This document shows, in pieces, positions 17,700-26,071 of a DNA stretch of 37,264 bases. This DNA is from Acidimicrobiaceae bacterium. Its GTDB lineage: Bacteria; Actinomycetota; Acidimicrobiia; Acidimicrobiales; RAAP-2. Location of the stretch: the NCBI GenBank assembly GCA_003133405.1, contig PKXH01000070.1:1-37264 (forward strand). Direction: 5' to 3'. Each line of letters opens with the position of its first letter. Positions within the stretch are counted from its first letter, which is position 1. The notes below the pieces were generated by a model. The model was given only the letters and a program-made list of their open reading frames with translations. It did no database searches and was not told where the DNA came from. The position numbers and the translations under genes were made by a program.

Positions 17700-18497
17700 T
17701 TATCTCCATCTACGTTGAGGGTGAGTATTAGTGCTGTCGATTGGTCGTAGGGGCGAAACCACGGGCGCGGGCGCCACGACGACGGCGCCGCCAAGAAACG
17801 TGTCGACGACGTGCGCCAACGCCGCGGCCGGCTCGGGCTGCTGCAAATCGTGACCCTCGGGTAAGACCGTCAACGAGGCGTTCGGGATGCGTCCGGCCAA
17901 CGCCCGACTGTTGGCAATAGGCGCGACACGGTCCTTAAGCCCGCACACGACGAGGGTCGGCGCCGCGATGGCGCCGAGAAACGGGATGCTCGACCAGGCG
18001 GAGATGGCCATGGTGCGCCATATCGCCGACTTCGCCTGGGAGCGATCGAACTTCGGCAGCACGCCCAGTCCGTCGAGCGAGTCCCAGCCACTGAGGGTCG
18101 CCCCCGCGCCACACGAGGTGGCCACGAGCACCAGGCGGAGAACCCTCGAAGGGTATTGAAACGCCAACTGCTGTGCCACGGCGCCTCCGTGGGAGAAACC
18201 CAACACGTCGACTCGGTCCAGCCCCACTTCATCGAGCATCGCGGCGGCGAGTTCGGCGAGTTGGGCGATGGAGAGGGGCAGGAGGGGCAAAGGACTCTGG
18301 CCCACGCCGGGCGCGTCGAAGCTGACGATGGTTCGCTCCCCCAACGCGCGCACGAACGGATCCCAACTCTCCAAGGAGCGAGTTAGCCCGTTGAGCAACA
18401 ACAACGGGTCGCCGTGACCTTGCACGCGGATATGGACTCGATGCCCCCGGACCCACAGAATCGAGGCGTCGTACGCCTCTAGGGCAGCGTTACTCAA
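17700..18497 (-). CDS. Alpha/beta hydrolase, probable intracellular PHA depolymerase-like
   Basis: A 265-residue alpha/beta hydrolase. Nucleophile elbow GFSHGG with Ser102, acid in VCGLKDR, and His in LPEGHDL. The N-terminal PLLLLNGLTRSLESWDPF followed by SFDAPGVGQSP resembles the PhaZ family of intracellular medium-chain PHA depolymerases. The start is TTG at 18497, overlapping the phaC stop as TTGA, so it is translationally coupled to the synthase. The tail (about 235-265) is Pro/Val-rich and low in complexity. Depolymerase function rests on context plus resemblance; another esterase is possible. Confidence 0.75.
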   Translation of the reverse strand: MSNAALEAYDASILWVRGHRVHIRVQGHGDPLLLLNGLTRSLESWDPFVRALGERTIVSFDAPGVGQSPLPLLPLSIAQLAELAAAMLDEVGLDRVDVLGFSHGGAVAQQLAFQYPSRVLRLVLVATSCGAGATLSGWDSLDGLGVLPKFDRSQAKSAIWRTMAISAWSSIPFLGAIAAPTLVVCGLKDRVAPIANSRALAGRIPNASLTVLPEGHDLQQPEPAAALAHVVDTFLGGAVVVAPAPVVSPLRPIDSTNTHPQRRWR

Positions 18498-20404
18498 GCG
18501 CGAACACGCACGTAGCTGCCGGGCGCCGCCTCAAGGGCCGGGTGGTTCTCATTGCCGAGGCGCGAGGGCGCGGTTACCTTCACGCCACCTCGAGCGCCGA
18601 TCCATTCGGTCCAATCGTTCCACCACGTGTCCTTGACCAACGTGGCCCCGTCCTGCCACGCTTGGGCGTCGTCGGGGCGCGCGTCGTTGGACCAGTAACT
18701 GGCCTTGGGACTCGGCGGGTTGACGACCCCGGCGATGTGGCCCGAGGAGCTGAGCACGAATCGATTGGCGCCGGTGAACATTCGAGCGGTCTTGTAGCCC
18801 GAGGGCCAGGGAACGATGTGATCGTTGATCGCCGAGACCACGTAGGTGTCGAGTTCGACCTTTTTGGGGTCGAGCTTGCGTCCGTCGATCTCGAACTCCC
18901 CGCGGGCGAACTCGTTGTTGAGATAACACGACCGCAGATACTGCGAGTGCATCTTGGCCGGCATTCGCGTGCTGTCGTTGTTCCACACCAAGAGATCAAA
19001 GGCGGCCGGCTGCTTGCCGAGCAGCCAGTTGTTGCCGATGTACTGAAAGATGAGGTCGTTGGCGCGCAGCGCGTCGAACACGTGGGCCATGGTGTCGGCC
19101 TCGAGGTAGCCGTCGCTGGCCATCTGTTCTTCGAGGCTGGCGATGGTCGCCTCGTCGGTGAACAGACCGAGCACGCCGGGCACGGAGAAGTCGGTGTTGG
19201 TGTTGAGCAACGTGGCCGACTTAATCGAGTCGTCGCCGAGCGACGCGTCGTAGGCCAAACCGATCGCGCTCAACGTGCCCCCGAGACAGAGCGAGACGGT
19301 ATTGACCTGGCGAGCGCCGGTGATCTCACGGATGACGCGTACGGCGTCAAGGAGCCCCCGTCGTAAGTAGTCCTCGAGGCCGAGGTCGCGCATACTCGAA
19401 TCGGGGTTCTTGTAACTTATGGCAAAACAGGTATGGCCGTGCTGGACCGACCACTCGATCAAGCTCTTGCCGGGCGCTAAGTCCATGATGTAGTACTTGT
19501 TGATCCACGGCGGACAGAACAGCAAAGGCACCGCATAGACCTGCTCACTCTGGGGTGAGTACTGGATCAACTCGATTAGTTCGTTTCGGTACACGACCGC
19601 CCCGGGCGTGGCGGCCATGTTGACCCCCAGCTCGAACCCCGAGGTGTCGACCTGCGAGGGCCAACCCTTGTTGTGACTCAGGTCCTCGAGCATGTTCTTC
19701 GCTCCGCGCACCAGGCTCTCGCCGCCGGTCTCAACGGCCTCTCGTAGCGCCACGGGATTGCCGAGCAGCGTATTGGTGGGCGCCAACGCGTCGAGGATGA
19801 ATTTGGCCGCGAAACGGGCCTTGGCGTCTTGGCCCTCCTCGAGTTGCGCCGCGTCCAACAGCTCATTGACGTACTGACAGCCGAGCAGGTACTGCTGCTC
19901 GAGCAAGAAGAACAACGGATTCTCCGCGTAGGCGGAGTCGACGAAGCGCTTGTCCCCAGAAGATGGTGTCATAGGCGCGGGCGTGGGCGTCCCGCCAGCG
20001 CGCTGGGCGGTCGCGCGCACCGCGGCGTCCAAGCCGATCGAGAGTCGCGCGTTGGCCGCCGCGACCTCAGCCGGCTTTTGCACCAGTGCCGCCTGGGCGG
20101 CTTGTAGTGAGCCAAAGAACGAGGCCGGATCGGCCTTGGCGACCAGATCGTCAATGAACGCTTGTTGAGAGCTGTGGAGATCTTGGGCGAACTTGAACAG
20201 GTCACTCGGCGCGGGGATGGCGCCGGGCAGCGGCAGCTGGACCATCTCGGTCAACTTGGTGAAGAATTCGCTGGCGCCTTCGAACCACGCGCTGACGAAC
20301 TGACGAGTGGCGTCTTGGGAGATTTGCAGCGCACCGAGCAACTGCTCGGCGAGGGGTGAACTTGGCCCGGCAGGGCCCGTGGCTTCGTTATCCCCTATGA
20401 CCAT
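18494..20404 (-). CDS. phaC: PHA synthase with phasin-like N-terminal segment
   Basis: Polymerises (R)-3-hydroxyacyl-CoA into polyhydroxyalkanoate at the granule surface. At 636 residues it is longer than the roughly 560-600 usual for class I enzymes. Catalytic triad: Cys373 in SLCLGGT, Asp528 in NDHIVPW and His556 in SSGHIAG. The lipase-like box has Ser where the first Gly is usual. Residues about 22-95 match the stand-alone phasin at 21518-21850: SQDATRQFVSAW against SQDATLKIVSAW, then LPL...P.P..L..FAQ.L..SQQ.F in both. A Pro/Ala-rich linker (about 136-148) separates this from the synthase. AGGGA lies about 9 bp before the ATG. First gene of the transcript with the hydrolase and SDR. Confidence 0.93.
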   Translation of the reverse strand: MVIGDNEATGPAGPSSPLAEQLLGALQISQDATRQFVSAWFEGASEFFTKLTEMVQLPLPGAIPAPSDLFKFAQDLHSSQQAFIDDLVAKADPASFFGSLQAAQAALVQKPAEVAAANARLSIGLDAAVRATAQRAGGTPTPAPMTPSSGDKRFVDSAYAENPLFFLLEQQYLLGCQYVNELLDAAQLEEGQDAKARFAAKFILDALAPTNTLLGNPVALREAVETGGESLVRGAKNMLEDLSHNKGWPSQVDTSGFELGVNMAATPGAVVYRNELIELIQYSPQSEQVYAVPLLFCPPWINKYYIMDLAPGKSLIEWSVQHGHTCFAISYKNPDSSMRDLGLEDYLRRGLLDAVRVIREITGARQVNTVSLCLGGTLSAIGLAYDASLGDDSIKSATLLNTNTDFSVPGVLGLFTDEATIASLEEQMASDGYLEADTMAHVFDALRANDLIFQYIGNNWLLGKQPAAFDLLVWNNDSTRMPAKMHSQYLRSCYLNNEFARGEFEIDGRKLDPKKVELDTYVVSAINDHIVPWPSGYKTARMFTGANRFVLSSSGHIAGVVNPPSPKASYWSNDARPDDAQAWQDGATLVKDTWWNDWTEWIGARGGVKVTAPSRLGNENHPALEAAPGSYVRVRA

Positions 20405-20448: not shown

Positions 20449-20481
20449 ACTGTACCTACCCACTGCTTGGCATGTCAAGCA
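20449..20481 (-). promoter_or_regulatory. phaC promoter with PHA operator
   Basis: Minus strand -35 TTGACA (20473-20478), 18-bp spacer, -10 TACAGT (20449-20454). The -35 is embedded in the near-palindrome TGCTTGGCATGTCAAGCA (20464-20481, plus-strand reading), which recurs at the two phasin promoters. Confidence 0.7.
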
Positions 20482-20583: not shown

Positions 20584-20970
20584 TTAGGCCCCTTGGCGAT
20601 TGGTCTCGACGTAGCTGCGATACACCCCGAGCAAAGCGTGACGTTGGGCTTCGGTGAGTCGCTGGTCGGCTCGAATGGCGCTCTCGGTAGCGTCGTCGCC
20701 CAACTTTTCAGTGCCGCTGATCAGTCCGGCCTGCTCAAAGAGAATCTCCGCCGACACGTTGAGCGCGTCAGCGATCGATTTGAGCACCCGGATCGAGGGC
20801 TCGTGGAGTCCCCGCTCGACCTGACTCAGGTAGGGATTGGAGATTTCGGTGAGCGCCGAGAGCTGGCGCAGCGACAGATTCGCAATCTGTCGCTGCGCCC
20901 GGATGAACCCACCCAGCACGCGCCGGGGGTCATCCTCAGTTGTTGTGACTGGCTCTTCCGTGCCTTGCAT
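20584..20970 (-). CDS. XRE-family regulator, probable PHA repressor
   Basis: A 128-residue protein. An XRE helix-turn-helix lies at about 18-72 (LGGFIRAQRQIANLSLRQLS, then EISNPYLSQVERGLHEPS), and a helical C-terminus about 75-128 may sense or dimerise. It begins 24 bp after the phasin 1 stop, so it is read from the phasin 1 promoter, which carries the shared operator. It is the only regulator in the cluster and so the best candidate to bind all three operators and its own promoter. Whether it senses polymer, as PhaR does in other bacteria, is unknown; it is not homologous in appearance to proteobacterial PhaR. Confidence 0.8.
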   Translation of the reverse strand: MQGTEEPVTTTEDDPRRVLGGFIRAQRQIANLSLRQLSALTEISNPYLSQVERGLHEPSIRVLKSIADALNVSAEILFEQAGLISGTEKLGDDATESAIRADQRLTEAQRHALLGVYRSYVETNRQGA

Positions 20971-21347: not shown

Positions 21348-21380
21348 ACTATACACCCCATCTGCTTGGTATGTCAAGCA
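21348..21380 (-). promoter_or_regulatory. Phasin 1/regulator promoter with PHA operator
   Basis: Minus strand -35 TTGACA (21372-21377), 18-bp spacer, -10 TATAGT (21348-21353). The operator copy is TGCTTGGTATGTCAAGCA at 21363-21380. This gives autoregulation of the XRE gene if it binds here. Confidence 0.75.
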
Positions 21381-21901: not shown

Positions 21902-21934
21902 ACTCTACCGACCAAGTGCTTGAAATGTCAAGCA
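21902..21934 (-). promoter_or_regulatory. Phasin 2 promoter with PHA operator
   Basis: Minus strand -35 TTGACA (21926-21931), 18-bp spacer, -10 TAGAGT (21902-21907). The operator copy TGCTTGAAATGTCAAGCA (21917-21934) is the most symmetrical of the three, with 7-bp arms around AATG. Confidence 0.75.
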
Positions 21935-24745: not shown

Positions 24746-26071
24746 GTGACCATTACCGCCAGCACGTCCGTTGTGGTCACCCAGGCTTACGTTTACGCAT
24801 TAAATCCCACGCCCGAGCAGATCTCGATGTTGCGCAACCACTTAGGTGGATCCCGGTTCGCCTACAACGCGCTACTTGGAATGGTAAAGGACAACTGGGA
24901 CGAGAACCGTGCGAAGAAGGAGGCTGGTACCGAGGTCACCAAAGACGACTGGATCAGCACCTCACAGATTGGACTGTTGTACCTCTGGGCCAAGCATCGC
25001 GACGAACTGGCCCCGTGGTGGCCACAGAATTCTTCAAGCACTTACAACGACGCGGCCCAACGTCTTTCGATGTCCTTCACCAATTTTCGTACAGGACGGG
25101 CTAAGTTCCCGCAGTTCAAGCGAAAGAGGCAGACAGGCTCGGTGCGGTTCATGGGACATGTCGTGCGACTCGTCGACACACACCACGTGCGCATTGCCCG
25201 AATTGGTGAGATTAAGACATACGAGTCCTCCCGAAAGCTCTACCGACACCTGGATCGTGGTACCGGCAAGATCGTGGCGGCCACCGTCACCGTACGAGCT
25301 GGCAAGTGGTGCGTGTCCTTCACCGTTGAGGTCACTCGCCAGATTCCTGTCACCCGCAAGCCCGACAAGATCATCGGCGTCGATGTCGGCATCACGACCC
25401 TCTACACCGGCGCCACGACAGACGGAAAACAAGTGTTCGAAGTAGCTAATCCTCGCCACCTCCAGCGCGCTGAGAAGAAGTTGGCCCATGTTCAACGCAT
25501 CGCCTCACGACGTCAAGGCCCGCGTTCCCCAGCAGCGCCGTCGAAGCGGTGGACCAAAGCCAACACCCGGATCCAGAACGTTCACGCCGGCGTGCGTAAC
25601 GCTCGCAAGAACCTCATTCACGAGACCACAACGATGCTCGCGAAGAACTACGACGTCATCGTGATCGAGGACCTGAACGTGGCAGGCATGTTAAAGAACC
25701 ACGCACTGGCGAAACACATTCAAGACGCCGCGTGGGGCGAGTTCGCGCGCCAACTCGAGTACAAGACCAGGTGGTACGGTTCTGCCCTCATTTGCGTCGA
25801 CCGGTTCTACCCCTCTTCAAAGACCTGCAGTCAATGTGGGACAGTAAGAGCCACACTGTCCCTTGACGAACGGACGTATCACTGTGAGACCTGTGGTCTC
25901 ACGCTCGGTCGCGACCACAACGCGGCCATCAACCTGGCCCGTCAAGGCCTGCCGGGGACAAGCTCTGGTACTGGACGTGGAGGGGAGGTAAGACCTGCGC
26001 AGCAGAATCTTGTTGCAACGGCACACCCTGATGAAGCGTCAACCGAAACGCCACCAGAAGTTGGCGCGTAG
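24746..26071 (+). CDS. tnpB: TnpB, RNA-guided RuvC-like nuclease of IS200/IS605/IS607 type
   Basis: A 441-residue protein. RuvC triad: Asp213 in GVDVGITTL, Glu308 in VIEDLNV and Asp390 in GRDHNAAINLA. The zinc ribbon has Cys361, Cys364, Cys380 and Cys383. The N-terminus follows the usual LNPTPEQ...FAYNALL pattern. All catalytic and zinc residues are intact, so it is probably active. Known TnpB proteins cut DNA guided by an RNA from the element's 3' end and favour its retention. The tail after residue 400 is polar and overlaps the putative guide-RNA region. GTG start at 24746 with no strong ribosome site; GTG 24773 is possible. Confidence 0.93.
   Translation: MTITASTSVVVTQAYVYALNPTPEQISMLRNHLGGSRFAYNALLGMVKDNWDENRAKKEAGTEVTKDDWISTSQIGLLYLWAKHRDELAPWWPQNSSSTYNDAAQRLSMSFTNFRTGRAKFPQFKRKRQTGSVRFMGHVVRLVDTHHVRIARIGEIKTYESSRKLYRHLDRGTGKIVAATVTVRAGKWCVSFTVEVTRQIPVTRKPDKIIGVDVGITTLYTGATTDGKQVFEVANPRHLQRAEKKLAHVQRIASRRQGPRSPAAPSKRWTKANTRIQNVHAGVRNARKNLIHETTTMLAKNYDVIVIEDLNVAGMLKNHALAKHIQDAAWGEFARQLEYKTRWYGSALICVDRFYPSSKTCSQCGTVRATLSLDERTYHCETCGLTLGRDHNAAINLARQGLPGTSSGTGRGGEVRPAQQNLVATAHPDEASTETPPEVGA

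Follow-up and report, generated by a model that had tools for sequence, protein, structure and literature searches.

Gene Order at the PHA Locus

The window, i.e., the whole stretch of DNA that was analysed, is 37,264 nucleotides long, and its PHA genes lie on the minus strand in the order phasin 2, phasin 1, XRE regulator, phaC, alpha/beta hydrolase, and two short-chain dehydrogenases. Phasin 2 (P0003, 21518..21850) is a stand-alone protein of 110 aa, and phasin 1 (P0002, 20998..21297) is a stand-alone protein of 100 aa as translated. The interval between phasin 1 and phaC is occupied by an XRE-type helix-turn-helix regulator (20584..20970; PF01381, E 4.2e-13). The alpha/beta hydrolase (17700..18497) overlaps the end of phaC, and its top NCBIfam model is a PHA depolymerase, matched at 126.2 of 250.6 bits (half the cut-off). 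The second short-chain dehydrogenase has its best match in acetoacetyl-CoA reductase (TIGR01829, 284.1 bits vs. a cut-off of 302.1). An IS605-type OrfB/TnpB-like protein (PF01385, PF07282, PF12323) is also encoded in the window, at 24746-26071 on the plus strand.

The phaC gene (P0001, 18494..20404) encodes a predicted class I-like PHA synthase of 636 aa that carries an N-terminal fusion. Its PhaC_N domain (PF07167) covers residues 151-318 (E 5.4e-60) and is preceded by 150 residues, while PF00561 covers residues 321-562 (E 9.6e-14), and the nearest PDB sequence, 9knj, covers residues 130-635. The protein thus resembles class I PHA synthases in having both PhaC_N and alpha/beta hydrolase domains and in matching TIGR01838, the top scorer among three matched class models, over residues 109-633. 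It differs from them in the phasin module added ahead of the ordinary N-terminus and in its TIGR01838 score of 587.2 bits, which is under the curated cut-off of 622.65 and is the reason why the protein is termed 'class I-like'.

A Phasin-Like Module at the N-Terminus of PhaC

The phasin-like module (20141..20371, minus strand) comprises a helix, a Pro-rich hinge, and a second helix at PhaC residues ~12-88, and was assigned by homology to phasin 2, the nearest relative found in the genome. The initial annotation had described motifs shared by the two proteins (SQDAT...VSAW, an LPL/Pro hinge, and FAQ.L..SQQ.F), and their order and spacing were verified by alignment: residues 19-98 of phasin 2 align to residues 12-87 of PhaC with a single gap of four residues. 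The module and phasin 2 are 40-43% identical. The Smith-Waterman score between PhaC residues 1-150 and phasin 2 is 144, which none of 2000 shuffles equalled (mean 28.6, sd 5.0). Phasin 1, which had been proposed to follow the same plan, is related more weakly: it scores 58 against PhaC residues 1-150 (3/2000 shuffles as high) and 93 against phasin 2 (0/2000). When PhaC residues 1-101 were searched against 296 genomes of the class, the phasin 2 of the same genome was recovered at E 5.1e-12 with 43% identity, together with single weak matches in two further genomes. With phasin 2 as the query, PhaC was found at E 7.9e-12 and phasin 1 at E 3.5e-5.

Profile-profile comparison, with actinobacterial phasin-like family profiles built in the present analysis, gave a probability of 99.4% (E 2.4e-21, 77 columns) between the module, as represented by 14 fused PhaCs, and phasin 2. 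The corresponding values were 93.8% for phasin 1 and 98.0% over 79 columns for a set of 21 stand-alone phasins found in other parts of the class and phylum. The homology extends across the entire helix-hinge-helix unit of actinobacterial phasin-like proteins. The relation to both phasins exceeds chance helical similarity, which was ruled out by the shuffle test together with the profile-profile comparison. The presence of a phasin-like module at the PhaC N-terminus is therefore confirmed at the level of sequence, and the fusion as first interpreted is supported. The extent initially given, 20016-20341 (residues 22-130), proved too long for what is a real module: residues 91-130, which had been counted as phasin-like, are ordinary PhaC according to the alignment with unfused PhaCs.

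The AlphaFold2 model of PhaC places helices at residues 17-54 and 66-90 of the module with low confidence, and that of phasin 2 places them at residues 9-56 and 73-101. The two segments are thus predicted to have a common helix, Pro-rich hinge, helix plan, although both models are poor (mean pLDDT 40.6 for PhaC, with residues 1-97 below 50, and 63.9 for phasin 2), and the full-length PhaC model was rejected as unusable. The amphipathicity of the helices is mildly above that of shuffled sequences (45 and 67 of 1000 as high for the PhaC helices, 15 to 207 for the phasin helices). Comparison of the phasin 2 model with the PDB returned generic helical matches (best Z 7.9) with no phasin among the 17 matches listed, and sequence-profile searches of the PDB found no phasin, the two low-E matches being designed helical proteins.

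With regard to the Pfam phasin family, Phasin_2 (PF09361), the module and the small proteins fall outside it by gathering score. No protein of the window reaches the 24.9 bits required; phasin 1 comes to 13.0 bits (E 0.13), and neither PhaC nor its N-terminus has a match up to E 10. Among homologues, Phasin_2 is matched by 3/14 and 5/22 phasins (E up to 0.1) and by 2/10 fused N-termini (E up to 1; best 0.0018). The best relative, at E 0.00071, is estimated to lie below the cut-off. Phasin_2 is the family matched by most members in each of the three scans; the same scans also contain isolated hits of single members to unrelated families (E 0.002-0.01). From the gene neighbourhood and these weak matches, it is inferred that the present phasin family binds granules.

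Comparison with Ordinary Class I N-Termini

The synthase is longer than its nearest unfused relatives, as the initial annotation had suggested. Ahead of an anchor column set at residue 160 of the window PhaC, it has 159 residues; the five unfused PhaCs closest to it (584-587 aa) have 104-105. Of 23 other PhaCs of the class, 19 have 57-129 residues ahead of this column; the lengths of the remaining four (218-390 residues) carry no meaning because the earliest start codon available to them is located far upstream. Most unfused N-termini of the class hold a segment that aligns with residues ~91-150 of the window PhaC (19955..20134, minus strand), an ordinary, non-phasin actinobacterial segment of the form DPxSF...P... 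(DPxxFxxxL...P in the nearest unfused ones). As this segment is also present in the fused PhaC, where the module is joined immediately ahead of it, the module is an extra and is not known to be required.

It could be argued that the N-terminal segment is nothing but the ordinary domain of class I synthases with a helical resemblance to phasins. In eight proteobacterial N-termini compared singly, z was 2.3 at most; the highest value came from a Paracoccus N-terminus against the module (19/500 shuffles as high), and an Azospirillum N-terminus reached z 2.1 against phasin 2 (24/500). Such values are what this explanation would draw upon, but it is highly improbable given the profile-profile comparison, in which the module matched two groups of proteobacterial N-termini at 0.1% and 0.4% and the unfused N-termini of the class at 4.0% over 17 columns, located at the DPxSF tail of the module, vs. 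99.4% for phasin 2. Moreover, the fused PhaC retains the ordinary segment besides the module. An ordinary class I N-terminal domain, which the initial annotation had itself raised as the alternative, is not what was found: the module is missing from all 26 unfused PhaCs examined in the class (22 judged by phmmer at E 0.01, L019 and L024 by reading, L111 and L112 by shuffle tests). It is also absent from the 19 proteobacterial PhaCs tested, of which eight were compared singly and 14 as profiles, three being in both sets. Alignments, shuffle tests, and profile-profile comparison together rule out the equation of the module with the ordinary N-terminus.

Four proteobacterial class I PhaCs (L119, L121, L122, and L124) have another conserved N-terminal extension, with W.SW near its start and WNANP near its end. 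These long N-termini were considered as a second type of fusion and rejected (profile probability 0.1% to the module and 0.8% to phasin 2).

Distribution of the Fusion

Within the genus, 15 of 99 genomes searched have a PhaC match, and the module is present in 14 of those 15, which rules out an assembly or frame artefact. The remaining genome, G457, encodes a distant PhaC with 42% identity, for which the match begins at residue 107. At E 0.001, the other 84 genomes yielded no PhaC match; the PHA locus is therefore patchy across the genus. Several of the fused loci are fragments or contain frame breaks; in one genome (G422, L076:6078-8281), the fused PhaC is split, by sequencing error or decay, over two frames that match residues 16-341 and 390-636. 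In the family, 17/172 genomes have a match, and the two that lie beyond the genus set (G834 and G838) are unfused. In a sample of the class, 27/395 genomes match PhaC_N, and the fusion occurs only in the window's genome among those examined, namely 23 of 28 other long PhaC_N matches (L014, an incomplete one, was dropped, and four lacked a locus).

When a named genome collection was scanned with peptide patterns, all 13 loci recovered were fused, an outcome partly built in, since the patterns were derived from fused sequences, which also makes the scan blind to distant cases. These loci belong to the same genomes as the other 13 fused members of the genus and add no evidence. In 12 of these 13 relatives, the isolate name includes palsa, bog, or fen. 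The fusion was found in a single lineage of actinobacteria from soil and peat.

A scan of 396 genomes of the phylum with the module profile, a sample that leaves room for fusions elsewhere, gave 24 matches in 17 genomes including the window's. The window's PhaC is the only match whose frame is as long as a synthase (653), the other 23 matches being in frames of 97-275 aa. The longest of these, in a genome of another family of the phylum (G647, L132:2050-2847), is an unusual phasin-like frame in which the module lies near the end and is accompanied by an Ala/Lys/Glu-rich repeat of ~150 residues (AAKEQAAKE...); it was rejected as a synthase fusion in favour of a repeat-rich frame. Other phyla were covered by the 19 of 217 plasmid records that have a PhaC match.

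At the fused loci, a homologue of phasin 2 is found near phaC in 14/14 cases and a homologue of phasin 1 in 12/14. In other families of the class, unfused phaC genes likewise have stand-alone phasin-like genes as neighbours.

Origin and Selection

A tree built on 91 columns from 59 modules and phasins unites all 14 fused modules in one clade (support 100/99). Together with 13 phasin 2 sequences, they form a group of 27 rows (98/98), and they seem to arise among the phasin 2 sequences (26 rows, 95/90). This tree was rooted at its midpoint, has few columns, and drew a long-branch warning from the program. A second tree was built from PhaC without the N-terminus, by a quick method with SH-aLRT as its sole support measure. 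Its 45 rows comprise 26 unfused PhaCs (23 plus those of G457, G834, and G838), ten of the 14 fused PhaCs, the other four being broken or cut, and nine hand-chosen from the 19 plasmid PhaCs. Here, the ten fused PhaCs again form one clade (100), nested in a clade of 19 rows with nine unfused PhaCs of the class (98), and one unfused row is placed inside the proteobacterial outgroup. These results support a single fusion, in this genus as searched, in which a phasin-2-like gene would have been placed ahead of an otherwise ordinary unfused actinobacterial PhaC. The initial annotation had allowed descent in either direction; both trees, within their limits, favour the phasin first and the fusion later over a derivation of the phasins from the synthase.

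The module is under purifying selection. Its dN/dS is 0.09-0.30 in eight pairs, vs. 0.08-0.17 for the catalytic part; the pairs share sequences and are hence non-independent, and dS is near or above 1 in several. A read-through fusion that persists as a tolerated leftover, with no function of its own, would be consistent with the faster evolution of the module in the four distant pairs (0.24-0.30 vs. 0.10-0.17). However, such a leftover is improbable, as the module dN/dS is well under 1 in all eight pairs and all 13 aligned fused sequences agree at its Q, T, F, W, and QQ positions.

A Shared Palindrome and the XRE Regulator

The palindrome TGCTTGNNATNNCAAGCA, with a TTGACA box inside it, lies upstream of phaC (20464..20481), phasin 1 (21363..21380), and phasin 2 (21917..21934). 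An exact search of the 2.27 Mb assembly (90.5% complete) found it at these three places only, and a reversed control pattern occurs nowhere in the assembly. Within the window, six matches with up to three mismatches were obtained (the three places on both strands), a number that none of 100 shuffles reached. At all three sites, as judged by eye, the TTGACA within the palindrome lies 18 bases ahead of a TANAGT box.

Among the 13 fused relatives, a TGCTTGNNATNNCAAGCA site with up to two mismatches precedes phaC in 12, and an XRE homologue is encoded upstream of phaC in all 13; of 22 further loci in the class, 12 also have such a homologue. The palindrome is likely the operator of the XRE regulator at 20584-20970. 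As it is shared by promoter-like stretches of the three genes and likely bound by the regulator, the synthase and phasins are probably co-produced. In a genome of another family of the class (G212), TGCTTGNNATNNCAAGCA also occurs at two stand-alone phasin genes, at L057:7036-7053 (no mismatch) and L046:5152-5169 (one mismatch); hence, the operator may predate the fusion.

A partial parallel is MLDSR of Rhodococcus jostii, which is described as an XRE-type regulator located next to a droplet-coat gene, binding a promoter palindrome, and sequestered by droplets (PMC5504291). Its reported box, GNT(T/A)GCTNNTGCTANC, is different, and the droplets consist of lipid rather than PHA (PMC5504291). By analogy, the present XRE regulator may work in the manner of MLDSR.

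Proposed Role of the Module

The reading preferred here, to which a probability of roughly 0.6 is assigned, is that the N-terminal phasin module, of single origin, anchors the synthase at the granule surface or coat from the start and is co-produced with the phasins. The two helices of the module would lie on the surface of the nascent polymer, pair with phasins 1 and 2, or do both, and would thereby hold the growing synthase in the granule coat from the outset. Such anchoring could affect the seeding and number of granules, and the XRE regulator, acting on the common palindrome, would cause the synthase and phasins to be made together. The most likely function of the module, as inferred from sequence, is that of a tether between the synthase and either the granule surface or the phasin coat. 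The stronger proposal of a self-coating polymerase, a lineage-specific natural fusion that would both seed and position granules on its own and share one operator, and thus its regulation, with the free phasins, has about an even chance of being correct.

The module may also be conceived as a protein-protein device that pairs with phasins 1/2 or with another synthase, a built-in activator similar to PhaM, PhaE, or PhaR that makes no contact with the polymer. The module and its two possible partners, phasins 1 and 2, are homologous and have one palindrome in common. In class I PhaCs, dimerisation and the number of granules are reportedly influenced by the N-terminus (PMC10867992), and according to a review, a high proportion of phasins contain leucine-zipper motifs (PMC5658603). 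The present data fit contact with protein and contact with polymer alike, and a purely protein-directed device is considered rather unlikely beside the anchoring of the synthase at the granule.

Relation to Known Systems and Significance

By sequence, the module groups with the small stand-alone phasin-like proteins of actinobacteria, which are often encoded beside phaC and match PF09361 weakly; unlike them, it constitutes a third copy that is covalently part of the synthase. Two described proteins are comparable in architecture. PhaC2 of Cobetia is likewise a class I synthase with an extra terminal region found in one genus, for which its authors speculated on a PhaM-like role; however, that extension is C-terminal, 380 residues long, mostly unordered, and has a pI of 10.34, and no relation to phasins was found in its description (PMC8686332). 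In PhaF of Pseudomonas, a phasin module is also joined to a second functional domain, but according to the review its partner is a histone-like DNA-binding tail and not a polymerase (PMC5658603). Engineered PhaC fusions are common among the literature matches listed from one full-text search. Over all full-text searches, no natural fusion of a phasin and a PHA synthase was found among the matches listed. The enzyme and the sort of coat protein are both known, and their joining is rated as new.

The role of the PhaC N-terminal domain has been called elusive (PMC10867992). A natural polymerase with an apparent coat protein inside it would allow direct tests of how the synthase, the coat, and the first polymer chains assemble. 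The natural fusion also shows where the two parts can meet, just ahead of the DPxSF segment, and the module may be usable as it stands to anchor proteins on PHA beads.
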